Origin: a virus
Length of the DNA stretch: 64,000 nt
Virus record (IMG/VR): IMGVR_UViG_3300037258_000514
Coordinates: 1-64,000 of that record
Strand: one strand, 5' to 3'
Shown here: in pieces, positions 2,948 to 44,326 of the stretch
Layout: every line of letters starts with the position of its first letter
Numbering within the stretch: position 1 is the first letter of the stretch
Translations under genes and position numbers: made by a program
Notes under the pieces: generated by a model
Seen by the model: only the letters and a program-made list of their open reading frames with translations
Told to the model about the DNA's origin: nothing
Databases searched by the model: none

Positions 2948-3581
2948 GAATGTAGGGTTTGGAGCAAATAAACTAATCATTAGTGTACCGAGTTGTGAAA
3001 CACCTGCTTCTGTGGATTGGGCTATCAATTTGGCCAGTCAATACTGGCCATTAACTGTTTCCATTGAATACTCATCGCAAGAGGGTGTAGGACAAGATTT
3101 AGATTTGCTCAGGAATTATACAGTTGCGTACGCGTTAGGAACAAAAACAAAGTACATTTGGTTTGTAAGAGAAAATTCTCTTCCGCCGAACTGGGCAGTG
3201 CATCGTTTGTTAGAAGCAATGCGTGTTGATCCTAAGATTATGATTTGTGCTGGTATGTCACGAACAAATGTTCCTGAATCTGTTGAATTTTTAGACGAAG
3301 TTACAGTATTTGTTGATGAAAATAAAAATGAATTCGAAGTACTCTCTCTAACTCAAAACAATCATGTTGGATTGGAGTGTACACTTATTAAAACAGAAGT
3401 ATTCGACTTAATCCCTGAACCGTGGTTTAAATCGACAGATTTAGTTAAATCTGATAGTCGTTTGTGTTATGAGGTTATGGCGGCAGGATATAAGGTCTGT
3501 GCGCATTCAGGTGTAATGTGCGGTCGTGTTGATGAATCAGGTAGAAGTCACTGGCCTGAAGAAGCACTGGTTGCAGTCTAA
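2940..3581 (+). CDS. Glycosyltransferase-like paralogue lacking the DDD motif
   Basis: The 213-residue product aligns along its length with the gene at 2061: same opening strand, a W-x-V-x-x-x-x-x-P-P segment, a Cys-Ala-Gly segment, Leu-Ile-Lys-Thr-Glu-x-Phe-Asp and the closing Ala-His-x-Gly-Val-x-Cys-Gly. At the position of the metal-binding Asp triad it has Arg77-Glu78-Asn79. It is therefore probably catalytically inactive or metal-independent and could serve as a partner subunit. It starts within the end of the preceding small gene. Frame and ribosome-binding context look intact, so it is not a simple pseudogene. Confidence 0.65.
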   Translation: MSENVGFGANKLIISVPSCETPASVDWAINLASQYWPLTVSIEYSSQEGVGQDLDLLRNYTVAYALGTKTKYIWFVRENSLPPNWAVHRLLEAMRVDPKIMICAGMSRTNVPESVEFLDEVTVFVDENKNEFEVLSLTQNNHVGLECTLIKTEVFDLIPEPWFKSTDLVKSDSRLCYEVMAAGYKVCAHSGVMCGRVDESGRSHWPEEALVAV

Positions 3582-4559: not shown

Positions 4560-5108
4560 ATGCAAATTCTTCAGTTTTTCATCTTAACAGCGATATTTAT
4601 ACAATCTGTTATCATTTTGCCGGCTCAACAACTTATTACACAAGCAAAAGCAGTTTCAGTATTAGTTAACAATGATCAAATTATTGGATATTCCTGGGGA
4701 ATCGCTATTCCCAGTAAATACGAACCGACTAAGCAATTAATTTCATGTAAATTTACAAAAGTAGAGAAAGCAAAAGCTAGTAATGTTCTTCTTGTTAAAA
4801 CGTGCCTCAACAAAACGATTAATATTTATTTCACAAGTGAAGATAGTTTTGTATGCAAGACTCCATGTTCTTTTGAGGGTACGACATTTAATTGGAATGA
4901 TGAAGTACGTTGGGCGCCCGACGGCACAAACTACCGAGTTGTTAATTCCGAAATACTCGTAGTATTTGGTAGTTTTACTGATCCATCAGGCACAATGATT
5001 CCAGCAGCTGCAAATATATCATTTAGAACTTGGCCAACAAATTATCAAGATTACAATTTCCCGATTCTTATGGGCGGAACATTTGGCGTTGAACTAGGTC
5101 AAAAATAA
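4560..5108 (+). CDS. Exported protein of unknown function
   Basis: The 182-residue product begins with a hydrophobic stretch (about residues 5-22) followed by Pro-Ala-Gln-Gln, a plausible Sec signal peptide with a cleavage site near 23. The rest is beta-rich with four cysteines (two in Cys-Lys-Thr-Pro-Cys) that could form disulphides after export. I recognise no family. The stop overlaps the next ATG (TAATG). Exported proteins are unexpected inside a phage tail-fibre cluster, because virion proteins normally assemble in the cytoplasm. It may act on the host envelope or be a moron gene. Confidence 0.55.
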   Translation: MQILQFFILTAIFIQSVIILPAQQLITQAKAVSVLVNNDQIIGYSWGIAIPSKYEPTKQLISCKFTKVEKAKASNVLLVKTCLNKTINIYFTSEDSFVCKTPCSFEGTTFNWNDEVRWAPDGTNYRVVNSEILVVFGSFTDPSGTMIPAAANISFRTWPTNYQDYNFPILMGGTFGVELGQK

Positions 5109-6073
5109 TGGCAGATACTAAGATTAGTGCTCTCCCGACTGTAACAACAGCGCAGGGAACAGATCAATTCGCAGTTAATCAAGGCGGCGTTTCTATGCAG
5201 GAAACGCTTGCTCAAGCATTAACTGATGATGTTCACGCTGGATATTCTGAATACACAGCAATTGCGTCTCCCAGTACACCCTCAGGGGCCGTAAGATTCT
5301 ATGCTCAACAATCAGCAAGATATTTGCCGCGATGGATTGGTCCCTCAGGATTAGATACAGGCGTGCAACCAGCATTGTTTGGTAATAATGTTGTAATGTG
5401 GCTTGTAGGGACATCAATAACGGCGGCTATTAACTTTGGAACTGCTTGGACAGTCGCTACGACACAAGCAACCCCAACCATTGCAAATACAAATTTCATG
5501 ACGCAGATGAAGCGCGCTACGTTTACGACAACAACAACTGCTGCAAATACATCAGGCGTTAGAAGCAGTGCTCCTTGTTGTTGGATTGGAAGTTCTGCTG
5601 GTCAAGGCGGTTTTTATTTTGTTGTAAGATTTGGAATCGCAACATATTCATCGACAATGCGTGTATGGGCAGGATTATCAGCTCTTACAACAGCGTTGGC
5701 AGCCGATCCCAGTTCCACAGTAAATACATGTGCAATGACAAAGGATACAGGGGAAACAACTTGGCAATGTACTACAGTAAATGGACTCGGTTCTGCAACA
5801 AAAATAAGTACAGGGAGAACTACACAAGCCGGAACAACATCAGACATATTTGATTTTAGAATGTTTTGTGCGCCTAATGGTACATCAATCACATTTAATG
5901 TTGAAGACATTACATCGGGAACAGTTTATGTAAATAACTCATCTCAAACGTTAACTTTACCGGGTAACTCAGCTATGTTACTCCCTCACGTTGAATGCAC
6001 GAACGTTGCTGGGGGTGCGGGTACGGCAGTTGCAATCTTCTTAAATAAAATTTACATCGAGACGGATAACTAA
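5108..6073 (+). CDS. Tail fibre / receptor-binding-like structural protein
   Basis: The 321-residue product starts Met-Ala-Asp-Thr-Lys-Ile-Ser-Ala-Leu-Pro, followed by a Gly-Thr-Asp-Gln-Phe segment. This N-terminal signature recurs in many phage tail-fibre and virion surface proteins. The remainder is Thr/Ser/Gly-rich, beta-strand-like and lacks charged clusters, consistent with a beta-sandwich (lectin or laminin-G-like) tip domain. There is no signal peptide. It is coupled to the genes on both sides by TAATG overlaps. Sugar or receptor binding is inferred from the family signature and composition. Confidence 0.65.
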   Translation: MADTKISALPTVTTAQGTDQFAVNQGGVSMQETLAQALTDDVHAGYSEYTAIASPSTPSGAVRFYAQQSARYLPRWIGPSGLDTGVQPALFGNNVVMWLVGTSITAAINFGTAWTVATTQATPTIANTNFMTQMKRATFTTTTTAANTSGVRSSAPCCWIGSSAGQGGFYFVVRFGIATYSSTMRVWAGLSALTTALAADPSSTVNTCAMTKDTGETTWQCTTVNGLGSATKISTGRTTQAGTTSDIFDFRMFCAPNGTSITFNVEDITSGTVYVNNSSQTLTLPGNSAMLLPHVECTNVAGGAGTAVAIFLNKIYIETDN

Positions 6074-40812: not shown

Positions 40813-40840
40813 TTGACATTGGACCCTCAATTTTTATATT
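40813..40840 (+). promoter_or_regulatory. Sigma-70-type promoter for the PTH2/tRNA transcript
   Basis: TTGACA (40813-40818) and TATATT (40835-40840) are separated by 16 bases, close to the bacterial housekeeping consensus. It directly follows a terminator. The expected start near 40847 leaves only about 10 bases before the ATG at 40858, so the first message is nearly leaderless. Confidence 0.75.
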
Positions 40841-40857
40841 ATTACGCTATGACATAG

Positions 40858-41328
40858 ATGAATCAGAACGCCCCGAATCCTGCCGATAAATACGTGTATC
40901 TCTTCGTCCGCCAAGATCTACCAATTCAACACCAAATTGTTCAATCCAATCACGCCACTCATATGATGGCTTCGATTCGCCCGGAAGAGTGCGTGCCCAA
41001 TATCGTACTTATTGGTGTGCCCGACTTAAACGCTCTTCTTCGTGTGGCGCAGAAGCTTAGAGCTAATCAAATTCCTCACTACGAGTGGGTCGAACCAGAT
41101 TTTGATTTAGGTTTTACTTCAATTGCTACTGCTCCGATTACTGGAGAGAAGCGTCAAGTTTTGAAGAACTATAGACTTTATTCCCCTGGAACCGTTGCGG
41201 TAAACGGCGTCGCTTGTATAGACCAGCCAATCCGCGCAGCTTGTCTCTTAACTGAGGACAGGGGAGCCAGTGCCCGAGTAGCTCAACAGCAAGAGCAGCC
41301 CGGTCTAAACGGGATGGCTGAAGGTTAA
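40858..41328 (+). CDS. Peptidyl-tRNA hydrolase 2-like protein
   Basis: Residues about 11-115 follow the PTH2/Bit1 pattern: Tyr-Val-Tyr-Leu-Phe-Val-Arg-Gln-Asp-Leu, then Gln-Ser-Asn-His-Ala-Thr-His in place of QCSHA, and Ile-Val-Leu-Ile-Gly-Val-Pro-Asp. A helix, Ile-Pro-His-Tyr and a final 'siataPi...' strand come next. Family members release peptides from stalled tRNAs, and some phage copies are of unknown activity; the invariant Cys-Ser is Ser-Asn here. The last 40 residues have no PTH2 counterpart, and the frame ends inside the first tRNA gene. Being co-transcribed with tRNAs supports a translation-related role. Confidence 0.55.
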   Translation: MNQNAPNPADKYVYLFVRQDLPIQHQIVQSNHATHMMASIRPEECVPNIVLIGVPDLNALLRVAQKLRANQIPHYEWVEPDFDLGFTSIATAPITGEKRQVLKNYRLYSPGTVAVNGVACIDQPIRAACLLTEDRGASARVAQQQEQPGLNGMAEG

Positions 41329-41347
41329 AGTCCTTCCTTGGGCACCA
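41272..41347 (+). tRNA. tRNA with CUA anticodon (amber suppressor)
   Basis: A 76-base cloverleaf with encoded CCA: acceptor GCCCGAG/CTTGGGC, TA, D-arm GCTC/GAGC with loop AACAGCAA, anticodon stem GCCCG/CGGGA (one G-A mismatch), loop GTCTAAA, variable TGGCT, T-arm GAAGG/CCTTC with loop TTAAAGT, then A and CCA. The loop centre after U33 is CUA, which reads the codon UAG. The D-loop lacks GG and the T-loop lacks the usual TTC, a paired loss. The amino acid cannot be told. The 5' two thirds overlap the end of the PTH2-like frame, whose TAA lies in the T-loop. Confidence 0.8.
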
Positions 41348-41350
41348 TAT

Positions 41351-41400
41351 AGGGCGGGCTAGCGCGCTAGCTAGGGGCTTCAGTGCCTCCCGCCCTACCA
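41351..41400 (+). ncRNA. 50-nt tRNA-like element lacking D and anticodon arms
   Basis: Acceptor AGGGCGG (41351-41357) pairs over 7 bp with CCGCCCT (41390-41396), followed by A and CCA. A T-arm GGGGC/GCCTC has loop TTCAGT. Where D and anticodon arms should be is one 5-bp hairpin, GCTAG/CTAGC with loop CGCG. It lies in the 58-base gap between two full tRNAs and has the 3' end of a tRNA. It cannot decode. It might be a degenerated tRNA or a tRNA mimic processed with its neighbours. Confidence 0.55.
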
Positions 41401-41405
41401 GATAT

Positions 41406-41486
41406 GCCGCTGTAGCTCAGATGGGCTGTATCCAGAGCAGCTTCCTTTTAGGGAGCAGGTCGGTGGTTCGATTCCATCCAGCGGCT
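41406..41486 (+). tRNA. tRNA with UUU anticodon (Lys-type), enlarged D-loop
   Basis: Acceptor GCCGCTG/CAGCGGC (7 bp), TA, D-stem GCTC/GAGC with a 16-base loop (normal is 7-11), anticodon stem GCTTC/GGAGC, loop CTTTTAG with UUU, and T-arm GGTGG/CCATC with loop TTCGATT. No CCA is encoded and the discriminator base is T, unlike ordinary tRNA-Lys. Function is likely but these oddities leave room for a decayed gene. Confidence 0.7.
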
Positions 41487-41502
41487 CTCTTTAAAATCGT
41501 GC

Positions 41503-41530
41503 GTCGGTTCGAACCCGACATGGCGCTCCA
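41503..41530 (+). pseudogene. 3' half of a tRNA gene
   Basis: A perfect T-arm, GTCGG-TTCGAAC-CCGAC (41503-41519), is followed by ATGGCGC, T and CCA (41520-41530). No matching 5' acceptor (GCGCCAT) lies within the preceding 100 bases. It is therefore an isolated 3' half, either a relic of a deleted tRNA gene or a phage attachment core of the type that restores a host tRNA. No integrase is present in the window. Confidence 0.65.
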
Positions 41531-41567
41531 CTTCTTAACTACACCGTGTTTAAGACATATCCACTCA

Positions 41568-42977: not shown

Positions 42978-43175
42978 CTATCGAGCGGCGAGAATTGCTT
43001 TCTTAACTTCGCTTACAGGAACTGCTCCTGTTGCATTCTTCTGTTCAAGCATTAACTTAAAAAAGACTGAGAAGTTTTGATTTAATTCCGCGATCTGGGC
43101 TGTCGTCTCAACACGAAGTGCAGCTTCCATACTGTTTAGTGATTTAAACTGATTTCTAATTTCGTTAGATGTCAT
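42978..43175 (-). CDS. Small helical protein, unknown
   Basis: A 65-residue product, helical and Ala/Glu-rich, with Gln-Asn-Phe-Ser-Val-Phe-Phe-Lys in the middle. It starts on the stop of the preceding nuclease-QueD gene (ATGA overlap) and ends with TAG immediately followed by TAA, three bases before the helicase ATG. It may be a helicase partner or loader fragment, judged by position only. Confidence 0.55.
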   Translation of the reverse strand: MTSNEIRNQFKSLNSMEAALRVETTAQIAELNQNFSVFFKLMLEQKNATGAVPVSEVKKAILAAR

Positions 43176-44326
43176 TCTAGCTCCTTTGGTAAAACTAATA
43201 GCCCACTGTTTGTATAAACTAAGGAATACATTGTAGTTGATGTTAGTTCAAATGTTGCAGAGCACTTTCTTGTTTCCTCAACACAACATTTTACTAAGTG
43301 CACTCCTGTTCCTGTAAGTTGTTTTGGACCGACATGCTCAACAAGAAATTTAGCGATATTTTCAGCTGTAGGATTAAATGGAGTAATTACAACAGTTTTA
43401 TCAAGAGCCTTAAATGTTTTACTCCAAGGATCTTTCTTCCATATTAAAAATCTATGATCCCAGTTTGTTTCTAGCCATTGGCATAGAAGTGTGTTAATTA
43501 CTCCAAAATCAATTACTCTTCCTATTGAATCTAGAGAAGAAGCAACGCATGTAAAGTGTATTCTATAATTATGTCCATGAGCGTGGGAGCAAGCCCCTTC
43601 GTGTCCATATACTCTATGACCTGAAGAGAAATCGTGATAACGAGTAGCTGTAATTAAACTGTTATGAATTTTCTTAGCTATCCATAAGGGAATATCATGC
43701 TCCCAAAGTATTTCGACTTCCCATCCCTTTGCTTTGATAAAGCTAAGTCTTTGTTTTTCGTATGAAATACTTTTCTCTAAAACTTGTTTATCTACAATTT
43801 TATCAAATCCACATATCGAGCAGTTATGCCAAAAACATCCATTAACTTCGAGAATTTTCTTCTCATTTAGTGAGGCAAAATCTACTTGGTATCTTCCGAT
43901 ATGATATTGCCTTTTCCATCCCTGAAGATATTTCGCAACTAAATCTTCTACTTTTGATGTTTTTCTTCTGCCAACTTCAGGAGAATGAAAAATCCAATGT
44001 GCACCATTTTTTAGTGCTGTTGAAATCTTCTTAGCTATTTCAGGATCTTTAGCTATATTCTTCTCGCCATGCTGATATCCTACTTTAGGCATAGAAGTTC
44101 CGTAAATACCTAAGTATGTTTTTCCTTTTGTTCCGTGTCCTTGTTTATAAACAGGTCCGGATTTTACTTCGTGCGACAATCTTATAATTTTTGTTCCGCA
44201 TCCACAGGAACATTCTACTTCTATGGGTGTTAAGCATAAATTGCATATAAACGATTTAATATCGTTAGCTAGAAAACGGTCCTCGCAGTATTTGCAACTA
44301 CGCTCTTTCGGTGTAGTTAAACGCAT
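43172..44326 (-). CDS. queD: Vsr-like nuclease fused to QueD (6-carboxytetrahydropterin synthase)
   Basis: The 384-residue protein has two parts. Residues 1-225 carry CxxC pairs (11/14, 28/31), a middle DNA-binding region, and a Vsr/EDxHD-type nuclease: Val-Asp-Phe (148-150), Asn-Gly-Cys-Phe-Trp-His-Asn-Cys (162-169) and Trp-Glu-His-Asp (208-211). Residues 227-384 are QueD: Ser-Ser-Gly-His237-Arg, Cys246 with His250-Gly-His252, Trp-Asp-His-Arg near 294 and Val-Glu-Glu-Thr near 355. QueD makes the precursor for 7-deazaguanine. The link between domains is direct. A homing nuclease that entered the queD start in frame is the simplest explanation. Confidence 0.8.
   Translation of the reverse strand: MRLTTPKERSCKYCEDRFLANDIKSFICNLCLTPIEVECSCGCGTKIIRLSHEVKSGPVYKQGHGTKGKTYLGIYGTSMPKVGYQHGEKNIAKDPEIAKKISTALKNGAHWIFHSPEVGRRKTSKVEDLVAKYLQGWKRQYHIGRYQVDFASLNEKKILEVNGCFWHNCSICGFDKIVDKQVLEKSISYEKQRLSFIKAKGWEVEILWEHDIPLWIAKKIHNSLITATRYHDFSSGHRVYGHEGACSHAHGHNYRIHFTCVASSLDSIGRVIDFGVINTLLCQWLETNWDHRFLIWKKDPWSKTFKALDKTVVITPFNPTAENIAKFLVEHVGPKQLTGTGVHLVKCCVEETRKCSATFELTSTTMYSLVYTNSGLLVLPKELE

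Follow-up and report, generated by a model that had tools for sequence, protein, structure and literature searches.

A putative small CCA-ended tRNA mimic of phages, apparently linked to an amber suppressor-type tRNA and an amber-gated PTH2-like gene

The question raised by this locus is whether a 50-nt sequence that carries the two ends of a tRNA, and lies between two tRNA genes of a phage, is an element in its own right and, if so, what it could do. The sequence is found in a stretch of 64,000 nucleotides (here called the window) from a phage record of 175,952 b. Its presence and fold at 41351-41400 are confirmed (Table 1). The acceptor stem is fully paired, as the initial annotation had described it, but has 8 bp and not seven, and the ACCA end is read directly at 41397-41400; acceptor and end are of the kind required of a canonical tRNA (7 bp plus NCCA). 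A single 5-bp hairpin does take the place of the D and anticodon arms. No D arm is present and tRNA(CUA), ending 3 nt upstream, leaves no room for one, while the 7-nt anticodon loop with U33 is also absent, the loop being GCGCTA in the window and GGCA, GCAA or a purine-33 loop in the relatives described below. The T-arm, which had been called perfect, is fully paired, but its loop has 6 nt (TTCAGT) in place of the canonical 7-nt TTCRANN. The term "armless" is loose, as one hairpin and a T-like arm remain, and we refer to the element as a mini-tRNA.

Both tRNAs between which it had been placed are called by ARAGORN and score above the Rfam tRNA cut-off. At the window locus ARAGORN called these flanking tRNAs only, and so did Rfam at gathering score, leaving the mini-tRNA unmatched; over the mini-tRNAs of nine loci Rfam gave zero matches at E 0.1 or better. 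The folding energy of the window copy is unremarkable (z -1.73, with 13 of 200 shuffles folding equally well), so that the single sequence alone is no proof and the proof has to be comparative.

Table 1. Positions of the cassette features in the window and of RNA elements in other phage records
Feature	Record	Position	Strand	Details
Sigma-70-type promoter-like site	window	40813..40841	+	TTGACA, about 17 nt, ATATTA; ends 7 nt before ATG
Amber-gated PTH2-fold protein gene	window	40849..41328	+	in-frame TAG 40855-40857 (ATG ACA TAG ATG ...); 3' end overlaps tRNA
tRNA, anticodon CUA (amber suppressor type)	window	41272..41347 (mature part by eye 41274-41347)	+	ARAGORN, Rfam tRNA
Mini-tRNA	window	41351..41400	+	AGGGCGGGCTAGCGCGCTAGCTAGGGGCTTCAGTGCCTCCCGCCCTACCA, read directly from sequence
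Mini-tRNA acceptor stem	window	41351-41358 / 41389-41396	+	8 bp
Mini-tRNA hairpin	window	41359-41374	+	CTAGC/GCTAG 5 bp, loop GCGCTA
Mini-tRNA T-like arm	window	41375-41388	+	GGC/GCC plus one G.U; loop TTCAGT 41379-41384
Mini-tRNA 3' end	window	41397; 41398-41400	+	discriminator A; CCA
Second tRNA	window	41406..41487	+	ARAGORN Trp (cca); Rfam tRNA; unusually long D-loop
tRNA 3' half	window	41488..41531	+	by eye; T-arm, acceptor strand, TCCA; 5' half not visible
tRNA-like genes with 4-nt anticodon loop	L033	4007-4081, 4402-4477		
	L034	3549-3624		
	L036	5538-5611		
	L042	about 3399-3469		
Other minis, including 36-nt form	L059	5083-5132, 5531-5581		
	L061	4709-4758		
	L058	4547-4592, about 4595-4641		
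	L036	about 5612-5648		
Permuted-type tmRNA genes	L033	478-823		
	L036	1055-1405		
	L039	1256-1649		
	L043	1328-1647		
	L062	2618-2949		

The tRNA upstream of the mini-tRNA is of the amber suppressor type by its anticodon, and its charging and reading of UAG are predicted. It was labelled Pyl by ARAGORN, and its T-loop, TTAAAGT, contains the TAA stop (41326-41328) of the preceding ORF. In the second tRNA the anticodon loop CTTTTAG (UUU), read by eye, suits a five-bp arm better than Trp (cca). The phage also has a separate array of 30 tRNAs (ARAGORN), none of them CUA, and the cassette tRNA is the only CUA tRNA among the Rfam tRNA matches of the record. The array is nearly complete, on the minus strand, in L108 (G000 79500-99499), which also holds a tRNA-His missed by ARAGORN because of a repeated acceptor strand. 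One descriptor match in the main array, resembling a D-armless tRNA-His, was rejected as a mini-tRNA, being the full 75-nt tRNA-His with its repeated acceptor strand and hence a descriptor artefact. Phage-wide reassignment of TAG was likewise rejected, 8 of the 59 long window ORFs ending in TAG, with the frame mostly closing soon after.

Relatives in IMG/VR were reached through the ORF upstream of the mini-tRNA, the same small element being then found downstream of that ORF; in the phage DNA collection the window locus had no DNA match. A descriptor made of the 7-bp acceptor, a 6-nt TTNADT loop and NCCA, with the hairpin absent from its conditions, gave 10 matches in 20 sources and none in an equally large control of mononucleotide-shuffled sequence. 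Including L054, L071 and L111, which joined through later searches, the family has 12 mini-tRNAs in 11 phage records (the window, L050 with two, L051, L029, L058, L071, L056, L055, L057, L054 and L111), so the search for the same element in related phages, as initially proposed, was fruitful. In a 456-kb phage (L034/L061) an extra element, with the loop TTGATT, is flanked on both sides by tRNA(CUA) genes. The conserved length is 44-55 nt, with the T-loop and the discriminator 10-12 nt apart. The window has every feature of the family (acceptor, hairpin, 6-nt TTNADT loop, NCCA, and both a tRNA(CUA) and a PTH2-like gene upstream); it is weak with covariance model R1 (13.8 bits, out of register), was undetected in the R1 genome search and is a divergent member. 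A generic three-way descriptor matched 25 times, and shuffled sequence gave 3 matches. Chance accounts for many of the 25, above all in coding regions, and the matches with the conserved loop or adjoining a tRNA were the ones relied upon.

Despite a strand identity of about 45% (38-54%), pairing is near-complete. Among 11 elements standard pairs occupy 80 of 80 acceptor, 70 of 72 hairpin and 33 of 33 T-arm cells (183 of 185 in total), and none of 10,000 partner shuffles reached the observed pairing in any stem. This count includes L111 and leaves out L061, which is included in the comparison of bases and discriminators; the second copy of L050 (L050b), whose hairpin does not fold in register, is excluded from both. 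In the comparison of bases L050a lacks one unpaired base, which leaves the pair counts unchanged. Since the acceptor and the loop are conditions of the descriptor, the pairing of the hairpin is an independent test. In an alignment of six sequences (A4) 98% of the cells pair and both partners change in 11 of the 18 pairs (shuffles, 0 of 500); pairing drops to 35-57% in slid registers. Compensatory changes, which the initial annotation had suggested looking for, are present in all three stems, and on this comparative evidence the structure is under selection and the element is real and conserved. That it is a deletion remnant of a neighbouring tRNA is refuted for the family by these independent changes and by the same architecture in 11 phage records, and we consider this explanation extremely improbable even if phage tRNA arrays do contain remnants (the 3' half at 41488..41531 being a possible one) and the window copy alone could be decaying. 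The statement that the element is unlike a random remnant has thus stood, given the compensatory changes and its recurrence beside tRNA(CUA) in other phages.

The T-like loop has the consensus UUNARU with few exceptions, the loops of the relatives being TTGAGT, TTAAGT, TTGAAT and TTAATT. The discriminator is A, G or T and the acceptor pairs vary freely, and this free variation points to a putative recognition of shape, and not to recognition by one synthetase. The hairpin is capped by GGCA in five elements and by GCAA in one, these six of the 12 holding no anticodon, and otherwise by loops holding CTA. A 7-nt loop in which CTA takes the place of the anticodon is found in four elements (TACTAGT, TGCTAGT, AGCTAGC and TGCTAGC), which might suggest a decoding tRNA that lacks the D arm, as in some mitochondria, and reads UAG. 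We find this very unlikely, as all four have a purine instead of U at position 33, the tetraloop elements have no anticodon, and a full tRNA(CUA) adjoins in 10 of the 11 records.

Upstream of the mini-tRNA is the gene that the initial annotation had already noticed as coding for a PTH2-like protein. The AlphaFold (AF2) model of the window protein has indeed a PTH2 fold (pLDDT 75); the best structure matches, 3erj, 1q7s, 2zv3 and 1xty, all have Z >12, with the archaeal Pth2 3erj at Z 12.7 (rmsd 2.2 over 98) and 1xty at Z 12.2, and Foldseek agrees. By sequence, the window protein remains below the cut-off of Pfam PF01981 (15.5 bits vs 23); 14 of 24 homologues match Pfam PTH2 at E 0.1 or better, and two fusion homologues exceed the cut-off. 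PDB 24bt matches by sequence at E 7e-4. The lysines of 24bt are absent at the aligned positions, which have Q/H/A and others instead, and E replaces the D of 24bt. The lysine before the conserved Q..HA motif is the active-site lysine of PTH2, and at the aligned place it is absent in 24 of 24. Catalysis by the PTH2-like protein, and even its binding of tRNA, are therefore putative. No homologue of the protein was found in the genome-contig collection, and a search with the DnaB neighbour of the locus gave no relatives.

One of the unusual characteristics of these genes is the in-frame TAG found a few codons after the start; 43 of the 51 genes have it, or 25 of the 31 clusters formed at 70% identity, with the domain continuing past it and ATG-NNN-TAG as the commonest opening; for this tally labels were assigned manually, the start codon of L031 is ambiguous and L013 was left out as partial. 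The codon is present in the cultured phages GAP32, CBB-like phages, ME3, Arash, RAS14 and XacN1, and missing in L071, L075, L076/L078, L085, RaK2 with RCIP0023, and Hallingskeid. In RAS14 (L047 1063-1848) and XacN1 (L121 673-1512) the PTH2 domain is C-terminal in a longer protein with an N-terminal part that is HD-like by eye (Pfam sees only PTH2 in XacN1), and the amber codon is still codon 3. A restart without suppression is possible in the window and in L026, both of which have an ATG immediately 3' of the TAG. In existing annotation GAP32_397 starts after the UAG and pEa_SNUABM_19 omits the gene; being trimmed or omitted by annotators, it has easily escaped notice. The nearest PHROG, 34073 (unknown function), has 77 aa, a length which fits gene models cut after the TAG. 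The locus L071 (4001-4650) has no amber codon, and its cassette tRNA has, by eye, the anticodon UUG (Gln) and not CUA; loss of the amber codon and change of the suppressor look coupled here, and the UUG anticodon may be a hint that the suppressors carry Gln. In L075 a tRNA with a UUA anticodon (ochre type) is found at 2761-2836, 1.2 kb before an amber-free PTH2-like gene.

The order of the cassette is a strong promoter-like site (in some members), the PTH2-fold gene, tRNA(CUA), the mini-tRNA and often another tRNA(CUA). Judging from the promoter-like site of the window, we infer that the PTH2-like mRNA would be leaderless or nearly so. The arrangement TTGACA-spacer-TA...T directly 5' of ATGNCATAGAT also exists in L002, L008/L022 and L013. 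The promoter-plus-start pattern gave 19 matches, four with a PTH2-like gene (L008, L009, which equals L002, L013 and L022); in the remaining 15 a PTH2-like gene was not encoded. The CUA tRNAs of L051, L054 and L111 were uncalled by ARAGORN and read by eye.

All mini-tRNAs adjoin a gene for a PTH2-fold protein. As the loci were mostly fetched through the protein this linkage is partly by design, a bias lessened by RNA-only and whole-record scans. An RNA-only loop pattern matched 31 contigs, of which six had a perfect acceptor and the same six a PTH2-like motif upstream (others, 0 of 25); these six were already known loci. A second RNA-only pattern gave seven matches, five true and two by chance, and led to the new locus L111, which carries an amber-gated PTH2-like gene and a tRNA(CUA). 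R1, run over 28 whole records, gave 11 matches in 10 of them. Each of the 10 has one match in its cassette; the match outside the cassette, in a repetitive coding-type region of G026, was rejected as chance. A mini-tRNA of this type is missing from the surroundings of most PTH2-like genes, including those of the cultured GAP32/ME3 group, from which it follows that the protein does not need the mini-tRNA. On the sequence evidence tRNA(CUA), mini-tRNA and PTH2-like gene form one recurrent cassette, which looks like real and so far undescribed phage machinery. The initial annotation, supported in part by the results above, had missed this cassette together with the in-frame amber codon and the CUA identity of the upstream tRNA.

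Within the cassette the parts are tightly packed. The 3' end of the PTH2-like ORF overlaps tRNA(CUA), and in 10 of the 11 records the first mini-tRNA copy begins 1-7 nt after the CCA of this tRNA, the exception being L071, which has a mini-tRNA with neither amber codon nor tRNA(CUA). Considering all copies, the gap to the preceding tRNA(CUA) or mini-tRNA CCA is 1-3 nt in nine of 12 and 7 nt in two more. In 6 of the 11 records the stop codon of the ORF is at loop positions 2-4 of the T-like loop. The region could accordingly be kept as the C-terminal tail and stop of the protein and not as RNA; this is highly improbable, because the fold is kept in the window, L050 (second copy), L054, L057 and L071, in which the ORF ends at another place or runs in a different frame, and coding leaves the stem covariation and the NCCA unexplained.

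The closest rival of our functional reading is a processing element. The mini-tRNA would be a landing site for RNase P, whose 5' cut frees the 3' end of tRNA(CUA) and sets the balance between suppressor maturation and translation of the overlapping mRNA; the mini-tRNA would then be a by-product. The tight spacing, the overlap of ORF and tRNA, the stops within the T-like loop and the conservation of shape only, not sequence, are all in line with it. We hold it to be doubtful, seeing that the mini-tRNA of L071 has no tRNA before it, that L050 and L058 have two and three minis in tandem, that ordinary tRNA arrays manage without such an element, and that a cut site requires neither conserved hairpin loops nor an encoded NCCA.

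We tentatively favour, at somewhat less than an even chance, the reading of the mini-tRNA as a small, stable and non-decoding tRNA mimic which is most likely a ligand or competitor of the PTH2-fold protein of its cassette. Pth-type proteins recognise the CCA, acceptor and T-arm of tRNA, the very parts that the mini-tRNA has kept, and the PTH2-fold protein is for this reason its most likely partner. According to this proposal the cassette transcript would be cut by host tRNA-processing enzymes, freeing tRNA(CUA) and the mini-tRNA; tRNA(CUA) would carry ribosomes past the amber codon, so that synthesis of the PTH2-fold protein has to wait for an active suppressor; and the mini-tRNA, presenting the Pth-recognised part of a tRNA without an anticodon, would bind the protein and limit its action on real peptidyl- or aminoacyl-tRNAs. 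In favour of the ligand we counted the selected structure, the linkage to the PTH2 gene, the apparent recognition of shape, the PTH2 fold of the neighbour and the non-decoding loops; against it, the lack of the 24bt lysines, the many PTH2-like genes without a mini-tRNA, L071, and the weak score and post-amber ATG of the window. Confidence in a functional reading drawn from sequence is at best moderate.

A decoy role, directed at host enzymes or defence factors that work on the 3' end or the acceptor arm of tRNAs (CCA enzymes, EF-Tu, 3'-end toxins), with the PTH2-like protein clearing blocked aminoacyl- or peptidyl-tRNAs, would suit the generic shape and variable sequence, and related huge phages carry full-size tRNAs with a 4-nt anticodon loop that are also non-decoding. 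The single copy per genome seen in most records seems few for a sponge, and we judge such a decoy unlikely. Returning to the ligand proposal, its boldest form is a self-contained circuit gated by a stop codon, in which a UAG-ended minigene of two to few codons forms the opening, the suppressor opens the gate and the mini-tRNA titrates the PTH2-fold regulator; the suppressors of many non-recoded phages would then exist for this gate, and the mini-tRNAs would be the first known family of CCA-ended phage tRNA mimics that are protein ligands. We regard this as rather speculative and probably too far-reaching.

With respect to known systems, the mini-tRNA shares with the canonical tRNA (Rfam RF00005) an acceptor stem with a T-like arm on top and NCCA, and differs in having no D arm, no decoding anticodon loop and a T-like loop of 6 nt. 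Some mitochondrial tRNAs lack arms and decode with a 7-nt loop and U33; the three-way layout is similar where the D arm is absent, whereas the mini-tRNAs have tetraloops or purine-33 loops and belong to phages. The tRNA-like domain of tmRNA has acceptor and T-arm, a CCA end and no anticodon, like the mini-tRNA, together with the G3.U70 alanine identity pair and a tag reading frame; the mini-tRNA, at 50 nt, has no tag frame and no G3.U70 (all 11 of 11 have G-C or C-G as pair 3). YrlA, the bacterial Y RNA (Rfam RF02553), is also a non-decoding tRNA mimic, but of about 110 nt and with other motifs, and the mini-tRNA is unmatched by it; a sub-threshold YrlA (Y RNA-like) match is located downstream of a mini-tRNA at L094 1836-1942.

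PTH2 was noted in jumbo phages in a study that is said to be by Iyer and colleagues. That account (PMC7824862) places PTH2, the same protein family as that of the cassette, in ribosome rescue. The word "suppressor" occurs 0 times in its main text, and what it says of PTH2 includes no amber codon at the N-terminus and no partner of the suppressor or mini-tRNA kind. Theta ribozymes, portrayed in part of another report (PMC10879173) as self-cleaving HDV-like elements next to suppressor tRNAs of recoded gut phages, are similarly small RNAs adjoining a phage suppressor tRNA; as depicted there they differ from the mini-tRNA, which has a tRNA-like fold and comes from a window in which TAG is not reassigned. 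A search of the open-licence literature found no account of an amber-gated PTH2 gene or of phage mini-tRNAs. The mini-tRNAs make up a new structured RNA family without an Rfam entry, and the cassette offers a candidate answer to an open question, as a phage suppressor-type tRNA is here tied to one gene that almost always opens with an in-frame UAG.

Other unusual RNAs were observed near these genes (Table 1). Close to the same PTH2-like gene, huge phages (up to 463 kb) and L042 have tRNA-like genes of full size that keep the CCA and both the D and the T arm; their anticodon loop has 4 nt (GAAA, GCAA or CTCG), so they cannot decode. Beside tRNAs of the same phages there are other tRNA-like minis which end in CCA and have GAAA-type hairpins, as well as a form of 36 nt with acceptor plus one hairpin. 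L008 has repeated GGGTCGG...GGTTA units at about 1500-1939, with apparent permuted tRNA halves closed by TTCG loops. In five phage loci the amber-gated PTH2-like gene is preceded by a permuted-type tmRNA gene, and the two together are a possible ribosome-rescue module. Finally, at 43172-44326 the window encodes a fusion in which an endonuclease-like domain precedes a QueD-like 6-pyruvoyl-tetrahydropterin synthase domain.
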